Source: Spirosoma fluviale (GTDB lineage: Bacteria; Bacteroidota; Bacteroidia; Cytophagales; Spirosomataceae). From it: a stretch of DNA of 64,000 bases. The position numbers and the translations under genes are program-made. The notes under the pieces were generated by a model. The model saw only the letters and a list, made by a program, of their open reading frames with translations. It did no database searches and was not told the DNA's origin. Below, one piece after another: positions 1,961-9,866 of the stretch (position 1 is its first letter; the number at the start of each line of letters is the position of its first letter). The stretch spans positions 1-64,000 of the forward strand of contig CAMDRO010000007.1 of the NCBI GenBank assembly GCA_945906795.1, given 5' to 3'.

Positions 1961-1978
1961 GGCAAAAAATGAATGGAT

Positions 1979-2012
1979 GAATGGCAAATGCATTGAAAAA
2001 CATTTGCCATTC
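1979..2012 (-). terminator. hairpin terminator downstream of the PVC-type dehydrogenase gene
   Basis: Perfect 12-bp stem (GAATGGCAAATG / CATTTGCCATTC) with a 10-base loop, starting 7 bases after the stop codon of the leftward gene at 2020-5667. On the minus strand a T6 run follows 8 bases later, so it may be a factor-dependent or imperfect intrinsic terminator. It separates that gene from tgt. Confidence 0.6.
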
Positions 2013-2019
2013 ACACAGA

Positions 2020-5000
2020 TTATTCCACTTTCATAATACCATTCATAATTCGCCAGTGACCAGGGAATGTACACAAGAATGGATAATTTCCAGGGGTCGT
2101 TGGCGCCTTAAAGACCACTTTCACTCGGCCATTTGGCTCAACCAATGGCGTATAGGCCAAAATTTCTGGCAATGCAGGAATGTAGTTTTTAGCTACTCCG
2201 TCAGCAGCAGTGATCATTTTGTCCGCAGCCAATCCGATCTTCTCTTCACTTTTTAAAGCTCCTAACACCCAGTTATGAGGCATCGCATCTGTATTTTCAA
2301 AAATCAATTCAACCGTGGACCCAGCTGGAACAGTAAATTCTTTTTGATCATATTTCATCGCCTCAGGCACCGTTTTTAAAATCCGAGTAACCAACACACC
2401 CGCAACTTTTAAGGCAGGTATTTCCAACTTCCAAGCCATCGCCAATCGATCTAAAACTTCTAAATCTGTCGATCGAACACGGCTAGCTAATTCAGTTAAA
2501 TATGTTTTGGAATCTGTAGATAAATTAGCCACTCTTTTTACATTCCACGTTGCTGAAGCCCCTTTTAATGCGGCTCCAAAGGCAGGGGAAGAGATTTCCT
2601 TCATAGTCTGCAGATGTTGCACCACTCCATCAGCCGACCACGAAACAGCGCCGGCACGGAATAATTTTTCAATCATGATGACATTTAATCCGGATGATTG
2701 TGATACATCGATAGCTTTTCTATAAATATTATTTCCCCGTTCTTTTTCGCCTAAAACGGCCGAACGATCTAATTGAACCTCCATGATATATTGACCCGCA
2801 GTTTCAGGTGCCCAACCAAAATTTCCGACCCAAGGCCCATTGTTATTTTTAGTCACAGAAACCGTTTCCCCCGGAGCCACGCCATCTACGAAGGTATATG
2901 AATCATAGTCAATCCGATTGCCCATCCCCTCAATTTTGATGGTTAAAGGCAATGGTGTTCCCTTTGGAAGGGCGACTGTTCCCCTATTTTTTACGCGAAC
3001 GGTGAAGGGTAAACCTTCCCGAAGTTTGAAATTTCCTCCTTTGATTTGAATTTCTTGTACGACTAAATCAATTCCCGATGATGATCCTTCAGGACTAGGG
3101 TTTGCTAGATTTTTACCTAAAGATTCTGCGACAACTGGAATCTTTTTTGAGCCTTCCGCTGTGATGAATGCAGTTCTTCGTACTCCATTATGCGCCATCA
3201 TGTAGGCGGTGTAGGCCTCTGGAAGCCAGCGGTCTTTGTTGGTCTGTTCCGTAGAAATTTTGGTCATTAAAGCTTTTTCGACTTCTGGCGAATTTGGCAT
3301 TTCAATGAATGCTAAAACGGTGTTTAAGACTACAAGCGTGTCTTTATCGGCCATTAATTTCTTGTCTAACAATAATTTGGCCATCTCGGAAGTTCTAGGC
3401 AAAACCTGTACCGCTTGCTTTCTTACCGCAGCACTGGTATGTGATAAGGCATTTTTTAATGCAATTTTCACGGCTGGCAATTCTAATGCCCCTAAACCCT
3501 CTAGCGTTCTTAGCGCATGAATAGCTCCCACCGCTAAGCCGATTTCATCTGTTTTAGCCGTAGCCAAAACCTTTAAAAGTGCTGGAACCACATCTTTATT
3601 TCCTCTTTCAACTAACAATCTTTGGGCCTGTAAACGCCAAAATAAATTCGAATTACTTAAAGCAGCCACACAATTTTCTGGAGAATTTAAGGTTACCGGA
3701 GTATAAGCAGGCGCTTGATTATAGCCTACACGGTAAATTCTACCATGTGTATAATCCCGCAAATCATGGTCATAGGCATTTCCTAAACCATTAGTCCAAC
3801 CTTTTGGCGTGGGGTTATGTTGGATGATGAAACTATACCAATCTGCAATCCAAAGAGCTCCATCCGGACCCACTTGTGCAAACACCGGAGAAACCCATTC
3901 ATCAGCTCCCGCCAAGAAATTAAATGCCTCTTGGTCATTGAAATCGGACCCGGTTTTAACGGTTCTATTTTGGTGTACCACATGTCCTGTAGGCTCAGAA
4001 ACAAAGGCAATTTGATTCCAATATTTTTTAGGAAATGCGCGCGCAGAATAAAAATTATGTCCAGCAGCAGCGGTATATCCACCAAAGACATCCACCTGAC
4101 GTACTTTTTTGGTGATCGTCTTCATGTCTTTATGGGTGTCGATATTCTTACTTCCATTCAAGCTAAAAGGAGCATTCCAGATATTACGATGGGGAATCGC
4201 CATGTACCAACCGTGCGCATTGTTGGCCGTAGAACCAAAAACATCCCCCGCCTCATTGAAATCAAAACCCCAAGTATTATTGGAAGTGGTCGTCATGTGC
4301 TCCATTTTTGAACCATCGGGTTTAAATCTGAAAAAAGCCTGAGCAAATTGCAAAGAATCTGAACCCACTTTGCCTTTATAACCAGAATAACCGACACAAC
4401 CCCAAATCCAGTTGTCAAATCCATAATGTAAATTAGAGGGCCCCGCATGCGTATCACCGGTTCCAAAACCCGTGATTAACACTTTTTGCTGATCAGCAAC
4501 CCCATCTTCATTGGTATCTTTGATGAATAAAATATGAGGCGCTTGTGAAACGATTAATCCTCCATTGGCAAAAACCATACCTGTTGGGATGCTTAAACCC
4601 TCCGCAAAGCGAGTAAATTTATCGGCTTTGCCATCGTTATTCGTGTCTTCGCAACGTAAAATATAGTCGCTTCCGCCACTGGCCTTGCGTTCATTCGGAT
4701 AGTCCTTTGTAATTAACACGTATAATAATCCTTTTTCATCCCATGCCATCGCGATTGGGTGCATGACATTGGGTTCAGAGGCAAAAACTTGTAAATTAAA
4801 ATCCACAGGGATTTGAATGTATTTCACAGATTCCTCTGGGCTTAAGGGCAATTGCTGTAATTGTACCCCAGGTCGCTTTTCGTAGTTGGGCAGTTTGGCT
4901 TCGCGATAAGCTAAAGGAGCAAGTTTTAATTGGTCCAACAAAGCTCTTTTTTCCTCGCCAACCGCATACAATATACCTTGCGTGACTAATTGTTGGAATC

Positions 5001-5667
5001 CTTCTGTTTCCCAAGTTCTTTCATCGTGCCCATAGGCCGTATAAAAAACATTTCCTTTTCCATAGGTACGAATCCAAGTGTAAGGCTCTGTGCTGGCACC
5101 TGGCTTATCTTTTGCTTGTTCTGGACCAAGAATTCTAGACTGCAAAACGATATTATCGGGCTGTAATTTACTGTGCAAATAGGTTTCGTCCACGGTCTTG
5201 ATTCCAGGAAAATCTTTTAGCACGAGATGTCCAGGCATTTCATTTTTGATGCGAATGGAATCCATTTTATGGCGCCAAAATTGGCCTCCCACCATTTTGA
5301 CAAATTCAGGAGAATTTCTAAAACACCAAGAAGCACAATGTAAAGCGACTAAACCATGTCCTGAAGCAACATATTTTAAAAGCGCTTTTTCCTGAGGAGC
5401 GGCGATGGAATCCTGATTGGCAAATAAAATTAATGCGTCAAATTTATTTAAATAATCATCATTTAAGTCCTTTAAATTATCAGTATAGGTGATGTTCATC
5501 CCTTTAACGCCAACCGCAGATTGCAGGGCTGGATATCTGTCAAATGGTTTGTGGTGACCTTTGTCGCCTAAAAATAGGAGTTGGAGACGTCTGCCTTTCG
5601 GAGCATTTTGCGCCAAAGTGGTCACAATCGAACAAATTGAAAACAATACGATTAATAATTTTTTCAT
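2020..5667 (-). CDS. ThuA / PVC-type dehydrogenase / blue-copper multidomain secreted protein
   Basis: 1215-residue exported protein. In order: signal peptide (1-19); a ThuA-like domain (about 24-240, with the GHGLVALHCASWCF segment); a PVC-type beta-propeller dehydrogenase domain (about 280-640, with EPNVMHPIAMAWDEKG, DTNNDGKAD and THAGPSNLHYG); HEAT-like alpha repeats (about 670-810); a CARDB-like beta domain (about 870-1000); and a C-terminal plastocyanin/azurin domain. The azurin ligand set is intact: His1131 in MPHNWVLG, Cys1199, His1204 and Met1208 in CTFPGHWRIM. PVC homologues usually carry heme c; here a type-1 copper site would take that role. The likely role is extracytoplasmic oxidation of a sugar-related substrate with electrons passed to copper (inference). 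It follows the MocA-family oxidoreductase by 36 bases and an AAACCTA motif sits 6 bases before its ATG. Confidence 0.85.
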   Translation of the reverse strand: MKKLLIVLFSICSIVTTLAQNAPKGRRLQLLFLGDKGHHKPFDRYPALQSAVGVKGMNITYTDNLKDLNDDYLNKFDALILFANQDSIAAPQEKALLKYVASGHGLVALHCASWCFRNSPEFVKMVGGQFWRHKMDSIRIKNEMPGHLVLKDFPGIKTVDETYLHSKLQPDNIVLQSRILGPEQAKDKPGASTEPYTWIRTYGKGNVFYTAYGHDERTWETEGFQQLVTQGILYAVGEEKRALLDQLKLAPLAYREAKLPNYEKRPGVQLQQLPLSPEESVKYIQIPVDFNLQVFASEPNVMHPIAMAWDEKGLLYVLITKDYPNERKASGGSDYILRCEDTNNDGKADKFTRFAEGLSIPTGMVFANGGLIVSQAPHILFIKDTNEDGVADQQKVLITGFGTGDTHAGPSNLHYGFDNWIWGCVGYSGYKGKVGSDSLQFAQAFFRFKPDGSKMEHMTTTSNNTWGFDFNEAGDVFGSTANNAHGWYMAIPHRNIWNAPFSLNGSKNIDTHKDMKTITKKVRQVDVFGGYTAAAGHNFYSARAFPKKYWNQIAFVSEPTGHVVHQNRTVKTGSDFNDQEAFNFLAGADEWVSPVFAQVGPDGALWIADWYSFIIQHNPTPKGWTNGLGNAYDHDLRDYTHGRIYRVGYNQAPAYTPVTLNSPENCVAALSNSNLFWRLQAQRLLVERGNKDVVPALLKVLATAKTDEIGLAVGAIHALRTLEGLGALELPAVKIALKNALSHTSAAVRKQAVQVLPRTSEMAKLLLDKKLMADKDTLVVLNTVLAFIEMPNSPEVEKALMTKISTEQTNKDRWLPEAYTAYMMAHNGVRRTAFITAEGSKKIPVVAESLGKNLANPSPEGSSSGIDLVVQEIQIKGGNFKLREGLPFTVRVKNRGTVALPKGTPLPLTIKIEGMGNRIDYDSYTFVDGVAPGETVSVTKNNNGPWVGNFGWAPETAGQYIMEVQLDRSAVLGEKERGNNIYRKAIDVSQSSGLNVIMIEKLFRAGAVSWSADGVVQHLQTMKEISSPAFGAALKGASATWNVKRVANLSTDSKTYLTELASRVRSTDLEVLDRLAMAWKLEIPALKVAGVLVTRILKTVPEAMKYDQKEFTVPAGSTVELIFENTDAMPHNWVLGALKSEEKIGLAADKMITAADGVAKNYIPALPEILAYTPLVEPNGRVKVVFKAPTTPGNYPFLCTFPGHWRIMNGIMKVE

Positions 5668-5673
5668 TTTAAA

Positions 5674-5680
5674 TAGGTTT
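5674..5680 (-). promoter_or_regulatory. AAACCTA leader motif before the PVC dehydrogenase gene
   Basis: Minus-strand AAACCTA 6 bases upstream of the ATG at 5667. The same heptamer occurs at 6-8 bases before four other catabolic genes in the window. It is not complementary to the 16S rRNA tail, so it is not a Shine-Dalgarno sequence; its role is unknown. Confidence 0.45.
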
Positions 5681-5703
5681 TGTTGGCCGTAATTTTTCTG
5701 CTA

Positions 5704-6816
5704 TTAGAATTTGGGTATTTCAATAATCTTTCCACCTTGTAAAGCAGATTCATGGGCTAATATACCCACGGAAGTCCAATTGGCCGACTGAGGAGCATTA
5801 GGGAATGGATCGCGATCTGCAGCTAATGCCTGTAAAAATTCATTGACCAAATGTGGATGTGATCCACCATGGCCTCCTCCTTGAGTAAATGAAAGATGTT
5901 GGTTTTCATCTTCATCGTATACCCCTTTAGTGGTAAATCGCTGAATTTCTTCGGGCAAATAATGGGCAAAATCGGGCGTTGCTACCTTTTCCGGGATTTC
6001 TGGTTCTGGTTTTTTGGCCGTGTGAATAACTAATTCTTCTCCTTCTACCAAAGGCCATTCCACTGATTTTTTTGATCCATATACCTCAAAACTTTCGCGA
6101 TATTGCCTTGCTACATCAAATAATGAGCGGTAAACCATCGCGCTTAAATCAGAATCTCTGAATTTGATATGGGCGGACTCAACGGCAAAAGGTGAGTTAT
6201 AGTGCGAAATGAGTTCTTCGCGAATAGTACCCGACCCAAAACAAGAAACATATTCTGCCTCCAAACGCAATAATCCTGCAACTGGCCCCACACAATGGGT
6301 TGCATAGTGCATCGGAGGAAGCCCAGGCCAGTAATCAGGCCAACCATCCATTTCTTGTTGGTGCGAAGCTTTCAAAAACTGCACTTTCCCCAATTCCCCT
6401 TTATTATAAAGCTCTTTGATGTATAAAAACTCTCTGGAATAAACCACGGTTTCCATCATCATGTACTTTTTCCCCATTTTACGGGACGCCTCCACAATGG
6501 CCTTGCACTCGTCCACACTGGTAGCCATAGGAACGGTGCATGCTACATGTTTTCCTGCAAGCAAAGCTTTAAGGGTTTGCTCGGCATGTAAATGAATGGG
6601 AGAATTGATATGAACCACGTCAACAGCCGGATCTTTAATTAATTCTTCAAAATCAGTATAGCGTTTTTCGATTCCGTATGCATCACCGATGGCCTGCAAC
6701 TTATCTGCGTTTCGCTGGCAAATGGCATACATATTTGCCAAAGGATGTTTTAAATAAATAGGGATAAATTCAGCCCCAAAACCAAGGCCCACAATGGCAA
6801 CGTTGTACTTTTTCAT
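5704..6816 (-). CDS. Gfo/Idh/MocA family oxidoreductase
   Basis: 370-residue NAD(P)-dependent oxidoreductase. The N-terminal Rossmann fold has GLGFGAE at residues 10-16, and a C-terminal beta-sheet substrate domain follows. The family usually carries an EKP motif whose lysine contacts substrate and cofactor; here the corresponding site reads CTVP in GKHVACTVPMATS, so the Glu and Lys are missing. A histidine-rich segment (GGGHGGSHPH) near the C-terminus may bind metal or sugar. Family members act on sugars, inositols and glycosides; the substrate cannot be read from sequence. No signal peptide is seen, so it is probably cytoplasmic. Pairing with the downstream PVC protein (36-base gap) suggests one catabolic unit. 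Confidence 0.88.
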   Translation of the reverse strand: MKKYNVAIVGLGFGAEFIPIYLKHPLANMYAICQRNADKLQAIGDAYGIEKRYTDFEELIKDPAVDVVHINSPIHLHAEQTLKALLAGKHVACTVPMATSVDECKAIVEASRKMGKKYMMMETVVYSREFLYIKELYNKGELGKVQFLKASHQQEMDGWPDYWPGLPPMHYATHCVGPVAGLLRLEAEYVSCFGSGTIREELISHYNSPFAVESAHIKFRDSDLSAMVYRSLFDVARQYRESFEVYGSKKSVEWPLVEGEELVIHTAKKPEPEIPEKVATPDFAHYLPEEIQRFTTKGVYDEDENQHLSFTQGGGHGGSHPHLVNEFLQALAADRDPFPNAPQSANWTSVGILAHESALQGGKIIEIPKF

Positions 6817-6824
6817 TTAATTAA

Positions 6825-6831
6825 TAGGTTT
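6825..6831 (-). promoter_or_regulatory. AAACCTA leader motif before the MocA-family gene
   Basis: Minus-strand AAACCTA located 8 bases before the ATG at 6816. One of five exact copies placed 6-8 bases before a start codon in this window. Confidence 0.45.
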
Positions 6832-6894
6832 AAATTCAACAGGTAACTTATTTTTTGGTGCTCAAAAGCCTTAATTTTCGAATTAGCTTTTTCC

Positions 6895-6927
6895 AGCTTT
6901 ACTAACTTTTTAAAAGTTAGTAAAGCT
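6895..6927. repeat. dispersed inverted repeat, copy 1
   Basis: Perfect inverted repeat with 16-base arms (AGCTTTACTAACTTTT / AAAAGTTAGTAAAGCT) and a 1-base centre, between the EamA stop and the MocA-family start. A closely related element, sharing the core CTTTACTAACTTT and its complement, is at 39469-39501. Two intergenic copies 32 kb apart suggest a REP-like or small palindromic element that could also act as a terminator. Confidence 0.75.
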
Positions 6928-6967
6928 AAAAAAGCTTTTTGACAAAGGGGAATAGAAAATAGATTTT

Positions 6968-7852
6968 TTAGACCAATTTGTTGGATTTCTTTAAAAAAGG
7001 GTGTGCCATAACGGTTAATACCAGCAAAACGGTGCCCCAATAAAAGCCGGGATGCATGATTTCTTTGCTACCAAAAATATAAATCGCTAAAATAATTCCA
7101 TATACAGGTTCTAATGTGATCACTAAATTGATGGAGAAAACAGAGAAAACTTTATATAAATGTATGGTTTCAGTATAGGCATACACGGTACAAACAAGTG
7201 CTAAAATTCCGATCCAGAGCCAGTCAAGCCCTATTGGGAAATATCCAGTAAGCCCCTCAAAAGCGCCAAAACTCCAAACAATTCCTGTCAATATTCCGGC
7301 CGCAATCATTTCATATAGGGTGATTAATTTGGGGTCATGTGTATTAGTAAATTGGCCATTGACCACCGAAAATAAAGCACCAAAAAATCCAGAACCTATG
7401 CCCATGAGCAGCCCGAGCCACTGCGCTTGTTGGACCGAAAAAATAATGATCAAAGCCACGATCACCAATAATCCTAAAAAAACTTCGATCATCGATATGC
7501 GTACTTTTTTTGCAATTGGCTCAATTAATGAGGTCCAAAAAGTTTGCGTAGATAAGCCTGCGAGACACATGGTCACCGTGGAAACTTTGGCTGCGCCAAA
7601 AAACAATAGCCAATGTAAGGCAATGAACACCCCATTTAAAATCCAAACCCATAAAACAGGAGTACTTACTCGAATTTTTTTTTTAGTAAAACGAATAATC
7701 AGCCCCAAGCTAATCGCCGTGATCACACATCTGACAAATACAATGGTGAGCGCATTTGCCTGAGTCGCGTTTCCAAGTATCGCAGTAAATGCATAAATAA
7801 TGACGATGAAATGGATTTTGAAATAGTCCAATAAGTGAGGAGCGGTCTTCAT
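6968..7852 (-). CDS. EamA/DMT-family transporter
   Basis: 294-residue integral membrane protein with about ten hydrophobic segments arranged as two repeats, as in EamA drug/metabolite transporters. Examples are the segments around LLDYFKIHFIVIIYAF and the repeat near LISLYEM-like positions of the second half. The start is taken at the ATG at 7852, which leaves one base after the lptG-type stop codon (TAA-G-ATG); an upstream in-frame ATG at 7885 would overlap that gene by about 30 bases. Substrate unknown. It is translationally coupled to the LptG and DUF983 genes upstream. Confidence 0.85.
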   Translation of the reverse strand: MKTAPHLLDYFKIHFIVIIYAFTAILGNATQANALTIVFVRCVITAISLGLIIRFTKKKIRVSTPVLWVWILNGVFIALHWLLFFGAAKVSTVTMCLAGLSTQTFWTSLIEPIAKKVRISMIEVFLGLLVIVALIIIFSVQQAQWLGLLMGIGSGFFGALFSVVNGQFTNTHDPKLITLYEMIAAGILTGIVWSFGAFEGLTGYFPIGLDWLWIGILALVCTVYAYTETIHLYKVFSVFSINLVITLEPVYGIILAIYIFGSKEIMHPGFYWGTVLLVLTVMAHPFLKKSNKLV

Positions 7853-7853
7853 C

Positions 7854-8930
7854 TTATCGAGGTAATGTATAATAAAGCCCAACACCTACGGAGCCAAAAA
7901 CGATGTTTGGGAGCCATACAGCTAATAATGGTGGCATTCCTCCTCCTTCAGCAATTCCCTTACTCATCATAAAAAACAAGATGTAAATAAAAGCCAAACT
8001 AAAGCCAAGCGCGATTTGAAATCCTACGCCACCGCGGGATTTACGCGCCGAAACTAAGAAGCCAATGATCGTTAAAATGATAACGGAAATGGGATTAGCA
8101 AAGCGTAAATATTTTTCAATTAAAAATACTTCTATACCATCAGCGCCACGAGAACGAACTAAATCGATGTGCCTATTGAGTTCTGGCAAGGTAAAAGTTT
8201 CGTGCAACAAATGTTTATTTTGAAAGTCTTTGGGAAATAAATTTAAGGTCGTGTCAATTTTCACTCCCGTAAAAATCCCAGCTTTCCCCGGCATTAAATT
8301 CCTAATTCGGTAATCATGAATCGTCCATTTTTTGCGAATCGTATCCCATGATATTCGATCGGACATCAATTTTTCTTTAATCTCATTATTTGAAATCCGT
8401 TCTAAACTGAAGCGATAACCCGTATTTGTGTTGTTGTCGTAGCTTTCGATATAGGCATACACATCAGGGGCGATTTTGATATGCACATCTCGTTTGTCGA
8501 AAAAATAAGTGCCGTTGATGTATTGATGCTCAAAGGGAACGCGGATTTTATTGGCATTTGGGACAACCCAACCAATCATGATAAAAGTACCGATGGCAAT
8601 GATGGAAGACCCGATCAAATAAGGCCGCATTAAGCGTGTAAAACTTACTCCAGAGCTTAAAATAGCTATTATTTCCGTTTTAGCGGCTAAGTTGGCCGTA
8701 AAAAAAACCGTCGCAATAAACACCATCAACGGCGAAATATAATTGGCCCAATAGGGAATAAAATTCAAATAATAATCAAAAATAATGGCATGCATGGGAG
8801 CCTGCTTCCGAATGAAATCATCGATTTTTTCCGTATAATCAATGACCATGACAATTAATACAATTAAAAAAACCGCGAAAACGTAAGTCTTCAGAAACTT
8901 TTTTAAAATGTAATAATCGAGTATTTTCAT
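7854..8930 (-). CDS. LptF/LptG-type permease (YjgP/YjgQ family)
   Basis: 358-residue YjgP/YjgQ-family protein. The N-terminal MKILDYYILKKFLKTYVFA is the usual cytoplasmic lead into the first of three membrane helices. A large periplasmic beta-jellyroll domain (about residues 130-265) and three further C-terminal helices follow. The family forms the membrane part of the Lpt ABC exporter that extracts LPS from the inner membrane, powered by LptB; an lptB gene is at 21536-22267. Whether this is the F or G paralogue cannot be decided here. Its ATG shares one base with the stop codon of the DUF983 gene (TAATG). Confidence 0.9.
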   Translation of the reverse strand: MKILDYYILKKFLKTYVFAVFLIVLIVMVIDYTEKIDDFIRKQAPMHAIIFDYYLNFIPYWANYISPLMVFIATVFFTANLAAKTEIIAILSSGVSFTRLMRPYLIGSSIIAIGTFIMIGWVVPNANKIRVPFEHQYINGTYFFDKRDVHIKIAPDVYAYIESYDNNTNTGYRFSLERISNNEIKEKLMSDRISWDTIRKKWTIHDYRIRNLMPGKAGIFTGVKIDTTLNLFPKDFQNKHLLHETFTLPELNRHIDLVRSRGADGIEVFLIEKYLRFANPISVIILTIIGFLVSARKSRGGVGFQIALGFSLAFIYILFFMMSKGIAEGGGMPPLLAVWLPNIVFGSVGVGLYYTLPR

Positions 8931-9316
8931 TAGCTTTTTATCGAATCTTGTTCATAGGAAATACCAGAAAACAAATGAATAAATATCACACGCGCAGTCC
9001 TAAAATTAAATGGGACCATAACCAAAGAAAATGTGGTAATTGGCACCACATAACCCATAGCTGGAGGGTCGTTGAAAAAATTGAAAACGATAATACCGCC
9101 GATTAACATGATCCCCACCGTAAAGGCATAGGAAATGTACATGGCGCCATAAAAAAATCCGGGCTCAACTTCATATCTCAAGCCGCAATGTGGACAATTT
9201 TCATGCATTTGGGCAAAATTGAACAAATTCCACCACGTATATTTAAAAAGTCGGCCTTCATGACATTGTGGACAACGCGCTTTGATCATCGCAGTTAGCT
9301 TACTTGGATCTGCCAT
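8930..9316 (-). CDS. DUF983 family zinc-ribbon membrane protein
   Basis: About 128 residues from the ATG at 9316. It begins with a zinc ribbon of two pairs (RCPQCHEG and NCPHCGLRYE) followed by EPGFFYGAMYISYA and two or three hydrophobic helices, the layout of DUF983. Function unknown. A start at 9409 is possible by frame, but it would place the N-terminus across the promoter of the divergent gene and add 31 residues unlike the family. Its stop overlaps the LptG-type start by one base, so the three genes DUF983-LptG-EamA form one coupled unit. Confidence 0.85.
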   Translation of the reverse strand: MADPSKLTAMIKARCPQCHEGRLFKYTWWNLFNFAQMHENCPHCGLRYEVEPGFFYGAMYISYAFTVGIMLIGGIIVFNFFNDPPAMGYVVPITTFSLVMVPFNFRTARVIFIHLFSGISYEQDSIKS

Positions 9317-9396
9317 CAATTGAGAAAATTTAGCCCTAAAGGTAAAGAAAATTGGAGGATTAAACGTAATTAAGGTCACGTTCCACTCCCTTTTTG

Positions 9397-9404
9397 TATC
9401 TTTG
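9397..9404 (+). promoter_or_regulatory. -7 promoter element TATCTTTG
   Basis: TATCTTTG is an exact TAnnTTTG match, 21 bases before the ATG at 9426. It overlaps a potential TTG start at 9402, which argues for the later ATG as the true start. No clear TTG at -33. Confidence 0.5.
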
Positions 9405-9425
9405 CACAAATCAAACTTACACGAT

Positions 9426-9866
9426 ATGTATTCTATTGTAACAAATGTTCACATTGTGCTTTTTGTACTTGTGTTTATTTTAGGTTTAAATCTATTGGTT
9501 AGGGCTATTCGCGGATTATCAAGCGGAAGCGCTTTTGTCGAAGCGGATCGCAAGGCAGGATTGTTTTTCATGATCTCTTTACACACTCAATTGCTGATCG
9601 GCCTAGTACTTTATTTTTTCTTAAGCCCAGTGACTGCTGCAGCTTTTGCTGATTTTGGTGCGGCGATGAAAGATTCGGCTACTCGTTTAATTGCCGTTGA
9701 GCATATTTCAGTAAATGTGATTGCGGTAGTATTAGCGACGATTGCGAATGCCAAAAACAAGAAAAATATAGCTGATGCAGCTAAGCATAAAAATGCGTTG
9801 ATCTTAAATGGAATCGGTCTTTTATTAATTTTAAGCCGTATTCCTTGGTCTCGTTTGTTTGCTTAA
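9426..9866 (+). CDS. conserved four-helix membrane protein of unknown function
   Basis: 146 residues from the ATG at 9426, with four hydrophobic segments: one at the N-terminus (IVTNVHIVLFVLVFILGLNL), one around FMISLHTQLLIGLVLYFF, one around VEHISVNVIAVVL and one at ALILNGIGLLLILSRIPW. Histidines within helices 1-3 (NVHIV, SLHTQ, VEHIS) could ligate heme. I recall similar Bacteroidota proteins being labelled cytochrome b-like, but that assignment is weak. It is followed after 6 bases by the HAD phosphatase gene. Confidence 0.75.
   Translation: MYSIVTNVHIVLFVLVFILGLNLLVRAIRGLSSGSAFVEADRKAGLFFMISLHTQLLIGLVLYFFLSPVTAAAFADFGAAMKDSATRLIAVEHISVNVIAVVLATIANAKNKKNIADAAKHKNALILNGIGLLLILSRIPWSRLFA

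Follow-up and report, generated by a model that had tools for sequence, protein, structure and literature searches.

A ThuA-propeller-copper fusion protein from Spirosoma fluviale: a widespread, apparently undescribed architecture and a tentative role in sugar oxidation

Domain organization of the fusion protein

A single chain that starts with a ThuA domain, continues with a PVC-type beta-propeller and ends in a type-1-like copper domain raises the question of what reaction such a protein would serve and where its electrons would go. The chain is encoded by one open reading frame (ORF), 5667..2020 on the minus strand, in a 64,000-nucleotide stretch of DNA from the freshwater bacterium Spirosoma fluviale (assembly GCA_945906795.1, contig CAMDRO010000007.1, positions 1 to 64,000; hereafter the window). 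The ORF encodes 1215 amino acids (aa) and occupies the whole stretch named in a preliminary description of this DNA, which had coordinates and length right and did not state the minus strand. The family to which the propeller belongs uses copper and heme as what look like interchangeable electron outlets, judging by the gene comparisons below. Our preferred reading, to which we give a probability of roughly 45%, is a periplasmic or surface-bound enzyme that oxidizes a sugar or keto-sugar and sends the electrons out through its own copper. The features of the gene are as follows.

2020..5667, minus strand: ThuA-DUF7133-helical repeat-CARDB-cupredoxin fusion gene, 1215 aa (ORF list, domain searches, relatives with 80 kept of 278)
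5608..5667, minus strand: putative signal peptide, residues 1-20 (by eye; region variable in alignment A1)
4963..5577, minus strand: ThuA domain, residues 31-235 (PF06283, 117.2 bits, cut-off 33.4; fold 4e5v)
3721..4842, minus strand: DUF7133 / PVC-type beta-propeller, residues 276-649 (PF23500, 394 bits; TIGR02604; fold 3a9g)
3151..3681, minus strand: alpha-helical repeat region, residues 663-839 (predicted secondary structure; HEAT_2 below cut-off)
2719..3069, minus strand: CARDB-like domain, residues 867-983 (Pfam CARDB E 0.21, below cut-off; Foldseek 3idu E 2.4e-5)
2434..2688, minus strand: helical linker, residues 994-1078 (predicted secondary structure)
2023..2373, minus strand: auracyanin/azurin-like type-1 copper domain, residues 1099-1215 (phmmer 2aan E 9.7e-16; VIA 2aan Z 19.8)
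2044..2073, minus strand: copper loop CTFPGHWRIM, residues 1199-1208 (ligands invariant in 77/77 rows with letters)

The Pfam search recovers ThuA at residues 31-235 (E 1.6e-33), DUF7133 at 276-649 (E 1.2e-117) and Copper-bind at 1102-1215 (E 9e-10), and the NCBIfam model TIGR02604 (PVC-type heme-binding CxxCH protein) matches with 237.8 bits against a cut-off of 122.2. The ThuA and PVC-type domains of the preliminary description are thereby confirmed above cut-off. HEAT_2 (16.8 bits) and CARDB (E 0.21) both remain under the Pfam cut-offs; the alpha repeats and the CARDB-like domain proposed in that description come out in structure prediction. With 47 aligned sequences as input, AlphaFold2 modelled residues 21-1215 with a mean predicted local distance difference test score (pLDDT) of 81.1 and a predicted template modelling score of 0.78. 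In this model the helical repeats are visible at residues 663-839, and the CARDB region matches 3idu in Foldseek (E 2.4e-5) with a template modelling (TM) score by target of 0.68 and a root mean square deviation (rmsd) of 5.9. The ThuA domain matches 4e5v in the Protein Data Bank (PDB) with E 3e-10 and, in the VIA comparison, a Z value of 22.6 and an rmsd of 2.5 over 209 residues.

Distribution of the architecture

The genome scan was queried with peptides of the ThuA and propeller parts, and its 278 relatives in themselves carry no information on copper. The best 80 of the 278 stretches encoding a relative form the near set; the 30 matches outside the own genome in a sample of 392 genomes, drawn evenly over the phylum, form the distant set. 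One fusion gene (L087) was missed by ORF parsing, was read separately and lies outside the counts of 81 given below, and one distant locus (L145) was missed in the same way and also read separately. The search for the fusion covered Bacteroidota only. Among the best 80 of 278 are Aquirufa, Sandaracinomonas, Emticicia, Arcicella, Spirosoma, Larkinella, Runella and Dyadobacter, together with one Flavobacterium and metagenome-assembled genomes (MAGs) of Saprospiraceae/Chitinophagales. The nearest genes are 94% identical and occur in MAGs labelled Spirosoma fluviale or Cytophagaceae.

The preliminary description had called for a domain-architecture search; it finds the architecture to be widespread, with a ThuA-propeller relative in 27/392 sampled genomes (E up to 1e-150, own genome included). 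An architecture unique to the host genome is ruled out by these genomes and the 80 kept loci. A chance ORF or an assembly artefact is likewise ruled out, with relatives of 54-98% identity (best segment) at the 80 kept loci in many assemblies and full-length relatives both across the genus and outside it. The ThuA-propeller-copper architecture is common within the phylum and no local oddity. A literature search found no paper describing the fusion, and DUF7133 and the TIGR02604 product name returned zero papers. Matches longer than 200 aa were discarded in an azurin survey (PMC8779525), so that such fusions fall outside it. The combination of a PVC-type protein with copper, and not heme, as the outlet is thus widespread and apparently undescribed.

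The C-terminal copper domain

In a phmmer alignment H1131, C1199, H1204 and M1208, exactly the ligands named in the preliminary description, pair with the His, Cys, His and Met of auracyanin A. All four are kept in 77/77 near rows that reach them, the window protein included; the count omits L047, L048, L050 and L051 (4/81 near rows), where the contig ends before the copper domain. Distant rows with letters have the Cys, the second His and the Met in 23/23 cases; for the first His the figure is 23/24.

Folded alone, the copper domain has a pLDDT of 92.7. The isolated model is closest in VIA to auracyanin A (2aan; Z 19.8, rmsd 1.3 over 119 residues), followed by other auracyanins at 19.5 (Roseiflexus, tied with 2aan) and 18.2, and by azurins at about 17. 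Within the full-chain model the domain superimposes on 2aan with a TM score by target of 0.90 and an rmsd of 1.6. The residue preceding the first His ligand is Pro in 8 and Gln in 69 of the 77 near rows with letters, and the azurin equivalog TIGR02695 is missed by the fusion protein (43.5 bits against a cut-off of 105.1). The motif MGHN is named for azurins in PMC8779525; the term auracyanin-like was chosen because Pro or Gln stands where MGHN has Gly. By its ligands and its cupredoxin fold in the model, the domain is auracyanin-like, with a predicted type-1 site. The earlier label azurin-like holds as regards a cupredoxin with four ligands and is loose otherwise, since the domain is nearer to auracyanins, misses the azurin cut-off and lacks the MGHN Gly.

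Copper and heme as alternative carriers

No CxxCH heme site is present in the fusion protein or in the 81 near rows, 4 of which end before the C-terminus. The TIGR02604 match could nevertheless bring it the name PVC-type heme-binding CxxCH protein, a misleading automatic label. Among the distant ThuA-propeller loci, a copper loop lies near the C-terminus of the same chain in 24/30. In 4/30 the chain has no copper domain and a separate cupredoxin gene follows downstream, at about 50-150 bp in L146, L150 and L152 and at about 1.2 kb in L149. One locus of the 30, L154, has CxxCH near the C-terminus instead of the copper domain, and one, L151, has neither.

The host genome holds 15 DUF7133 matches, 13 of them above cut-off. 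Ten of the 13 carry CxxCH, two a cupredoxin, and one is a contig-end fragment in which neither is seen; both matches below cut-off have CxxCH. This bears out the earlier statement that heme c is the more usual acceptor in PVC homologues. The copper pair consists of the window protein, with copper at the C-terminus, and a protein on contig C23 with an N-terminal cupredoxin. Ten further genomes contain 93 DUF7133 ORFs, of which 17 match Pfam Copper-bind (14 C-terminal, 3 N-terminal) and 39 the heme family TIGR02603, one of these below the family cut-off; the genomes were picked for holding a ThuA-propeller protein, and 17/93 and 39/93 are not phylum rates. Among the 37 ORFs with neither, at least 3 carry a copper loop (L131, L142, L147). 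DUF7133/PVC-type proteins are hence numerous in the phylum, at least in genomes so chosen.

Since relatives have the copper domain in the same chain, encode it separately or have heme c in its stead, the two carriers look interchangeable as electron outlets of a single propeller family, as far as these gene comparisons go. The exchange is the strongest support for the central idea of the preliminary description, a copper-linked member of a mostly heme-linked family. A propeller family with copper at either end, a detached copper gene or heme c also makes the electron-transfer role testable by comparison. It is very improbable that the cupredoxin has no part in catalysis and serves copper storage, copper sensing or a structural role: its type-1 ligands are invariant, and where copper is absent, as in L154 and the host paralogues, heme c near the C-terminus points to electron transfer.

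Several copper-bearing variants were seen beside these. The C23 protein of the host (L125, 3-2717, minus strand, G000:C23) has CTVPGHRAAGM as the loop of its N-terminal cupredoxin, and the 905 aa before the contig end contain no CxxCH. In G412, L157 (3758-7087, plus strand, 1109 aa) has the permuted order propeller-repeats-azurin-ThuA and lies close to a ThuA-propeller-azurin gene and to epimerase-like and MocA-like genes. L022 of G028 (6135-9446, minus strand, 1103 aa) combines an SGNH-like N-terminus, identified by eye, with DUF7133 and a C-terminal azurin-like domain. In L023 of G027 (4126-6207, plus strand, 693 aa) a cupredoxin at the C-terminus follows what is by eye a shorter propeller, and inspection by eye places a molybdopterin-type dehydrogenase gene close by; other genomes likewise have copper-domain ORFs, 655-725 aa long.

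The propeller and its relation to sugar dehydrogenases

The sequence profile of the propeller gave no convincing solved relative; such relatives came from fold comparison. The best VIA matches of the model are 3a9g (Z 25.2, rmsd 3.4 over 287 residues), 2ism (24.4), an AA12 enzyme (24.1) and 3das (23.2), and pyrroloquinoline quinone (PQQ) sugar dehydrogenases hold the best Z values, from 25.2 to 22.7. At the level of profiles, a mixed alignment (A3) of 2 fusion, 8 heme and 1 N-terminal copper row was compared with 11 GSDH proteins, from which L168 (wrong frame, 1 of 12 rows) had been left out, and HHalign gave a probability of 97.6%. The heme rows alone give 97.2%. By these profiles, the GSDH link belongs to the DUF7133 family via the heme paralogues and not to the fusion branch alone.

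Arg406 is presumably a PQQ-site residue of the soluble glucose dehydrogenase (sGDH). Roles of sGDH His144, Arg228, Asn229, Arg408 and Lys377 are described in PMC6881810 and PMC6881789; the second also reports a cytochrome b in the fungal pyranose dehydrogenase of family AA12. Whichever of the two alignment settings is used, Arg228 pairs with N463 and Asn229 with N464; the counterpart of Arg406/Arg408 is W591/S593 in one setting and S593/V595 in the other. In 110 relatives H407, A408, N463, N464 and W591 are invariant, the Asn229 position (N464) being thus kept in 110/110; position 593 is Ser in 91, Ala in 16 and Ile in 3, and position 595 is Val, Ile or Thr. The heme rows have His at column 408 in 6/8, and the heme paralogues of the host have Arg at 463 in 4/8 rows and at 593 in 7/8, L112 being the one of the 8 in A3 without Arg 593. 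A tie between the loss of this Arg and the copper domain was considered and ruled out, as the Arg survives (by eye) in the copper-ended L022, which has DPNFRPV there.

Several observations weigh against sugar oxidation by the propeller. N463 occupies the Arg228 position in 110/110 relatives, which is never Arg, and no Arg is found at 591, 593 or 595 in any of the 110; as judged by these alignments, the PQQ-binding arginines are gone from the propeller. The GSDH catalytic His (sGDH His144) falls on column 408, which is Ala in 110/110, next to the invariant H407. HHalign gives 0.46% for the fusion rows alone, and PF07995 is not among the Pfam matches of the fusion protein at E up to 1. Propellers of diisopropylfluorophosphatase (DFPase) and lactonases reach Z values of about 22 (22.0), tied with sGDH 1qbi (21.9) and about 3 under the best. 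No PqqC above cut-off turned up in the 39 genomes searched (25 of the same genus, the own genome included; there was no positive control among the 14 control genomes). Two further points come from the gene neighbourhood taken up below: at L084 there is no MocA-like gene within six ORFs upstream, and the ketose 3-epimerase homologue of the host is off-contig, at C2:45186-45992.

With these points in view, the propeller may be no dehydrogenase: it would bind or hydrolyse a ligand like DFPase or gluconolactonase, or act as a scaffold, with any redox chemistry in ThuA or a partner and the copper serving that partner. The tie of DFPase and lactonase propellers with sGDH, the absent arginines, the His aligned one residue off and the lack of a GSDH link for the fusion rows alone argue for it. 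On the other side, the DUF7133 family as a whole is linked to GSDH, the host DUF7133 protein G000:C67 also matches PF07995 above cut-off (34 against 25 bits), and the heme c at the end of many sister proteins is in keeping with electron transfer as a shared theme. We consider this alternative unlikely, if worth keeping in view.

An ordinary PQQ-dependent dehydrogenase that scavenges PQQ, holds it through altered contacts and passes electrons to copper is a good deal less probable. PQQ can be scavenged, and the propeller fold, the Asn229 position and the arginines of the host heme paralogues at 463 and 593 are in its favour, as is the difference between AA12 enzymes and sGDH in carboxylate contacts (PMC6881789). 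Against it, bacterial and AA12 enzymes retain Arg228 (PMC6881810 and PMC6881789), a position that is Asn throughout the 110 relatives, and 591, 593 and 595 are never Arg. Of the copper-linked sugar dehydrogenase suggested earlier, the replacement of heme by copper and the best-fitting fold stand, and the dehydrogenase itself is put in doubt by the missing arginines, the DFPase tie and the profile result for the fusion rows.

Gene neighbourhood

The MocA-family neighbour noted earlier is confirmed on the minus strand, 36 bp from the fusion gene. The features around the two genes are the following.

5704..6816, minus strand: Gfo/Idh/MocA-like gene (370 aa) with the lysine of EKP replaced (CTVPM), probably in one operon with the fusion gene
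1977..2014, minus strand: terminator-like stem-loop after the fusion gene (15-pair stem; inverted repeat 1978-1990/2001-2013)
6889..6933, minus strand: inverted repeat lying between the MocA-like gene and the gene before it (22-nt arms, 91% complementary; absent from the terminator-like list)

The short gap, the inverted repeat before and the terminator-like stem after suggest that the fusion gene and its MocA-like neighbour form a unit of two genes. The inverted repeat may terminate the unit before it; the region has 6 terminator-like sites, no excess over shuffled sequence (mean 5.6). A MocA-like gene stands on the same strand within six ORFs upstream at 75/81 loci and is the immediate neighbour at 68. 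Of the six loci that lack it there, L032, L037, L049 and L095 are at a contig edge, L021 has it downstream, and the last is L084.

The MocA-like protein has the NAD-binding Rossmann domain PF01408 (85.9 bits, cut-off 24). CTVPM is found in 93/93 rows with letters (95 rows in total) where glucose-fructose oxidoreductase (GFOR) has CEKPM, and the EKP motif is what we take to be the catalytic lysine site of Gfo/Idh/MocA oxidoreductases. Because of this replacement the partner may be no ordinary dehydrogenase, with its chemistry perhaps lost or altered.

An epimerase-like gene lies within six ORFs upstream in 49/81 loci. Its product matches D-tagatose/psicose 3-epimerases (D-tagatose 3-epimerases at about 1e-31), with the NCBIfam equivalog cut-offs not reached, and weakly a 3-keto-D-glucoside 4-epimerase (9.7e-10). 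In the distant set the order and direction of the genes vary and the genes stay together; copper, MocA-like and epimerase-like genes occur together in 14/29 parsed distant loci. The off-contig homologue of the host is situated about 0.9 kb after a heme-type DUF7133 ORF on C2.

Localization and proposed function

The N-terminus of the fusion protein is hydrophobic (by eye), and a lipobox-like pattern occurs in 17/75 near rows longer than 1150 aa and in 12/29 distant rows. From these features the protein is probably exported, and periplasmic or surface-bound.

Oxidation of a sugar or keto-sugar, the preferred reading, draws on the fold and conserved ligands of the copper domain, the exchange of carriers, the PQQ sugar dehydrogenases at the top of the fold comparison, the family-level GSDH link, the kept Asn229 position and the conserved gene cluster. 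The following course is anticipated. The propeller, with its PQQ sugar dehydrogenase fold, would take electrons from the substrate. The type-1 copper at the C-terminus of the chain would receive them by intramolecular transfer and hand them on to the respiratory chain, and so play the part of the C-terminal heme c in sister proteins. The ThuA domain may bind or process the oxidized product, and in many relatives the cluster-encoded ketose 3-epimerase-like enzyme and the MocA-like protein would act intracellularly on the product or on derivatives of it. A wider proposal is more doubtful: a widespread candidate class of carbohydrate-oxidizing proteins in Bacteroidota, defined by a propeller without PQQ arginines and with another first acceptor, a type-1 copper in the same chain, a product-handling ThuA domain, and a keto-sugar pathway of an EKP-less MocA-like and a ketose 3-epimerase-like protein. 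Should common freshwater bacteria indeed oxidize sugars outside the cell with this gene set, that would have a bearing on carbon cycling.

Comparison with known systems

The protein shares its propeller family with the PVC-type heme-binding CxxCH proteins (TIGR02604 / DUF7133, often with a C-terminal heme c, TIGR02603). Unlike these, it has no CxxCH, a C-terminal auracyanin-like copper domain and an N-terminal ThuA domain. With PQQ sugar dehydrogenases (3a9g, sGDH 1qbi, AA12) it has in common the six-bladed propeller fold and the Asn229 position, and it differs from them in the absence of the PQQ-binding arginines, in a catalytic His that aligns out of register and in its copper carrier.

The ThuA fold (Z 22.6) is that of ThuA-like proteins such as 4e5v, 4jqs and 1t0b, and the MocA-family gene beside the fusion recalls the rhizobial ThuA/ThuB trehalose system, in which we take ThuB to belong to the MocA family. 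Unlike ThuA-like proteins, the present domain is probably exported and is fused to a propeller and a copper domain, and the MocA-like partner is without the EKP lysine.

Finally, the copper domain resembles auracyanin A (Chloroflexus aurantiacus, 2aan) and azurin in its fold and its four copper ligands, and the loop CTFPGHWRIM of the fusion compares with CTFPGHSALM of azurin (taken from a PDB title). Before the first His ligand azurin has Gly, whereas the fusion relatives have Pro or Gln. Auracyanin and azurin are free carriers; here the copper domain is part of a large, enzyme-like chain.

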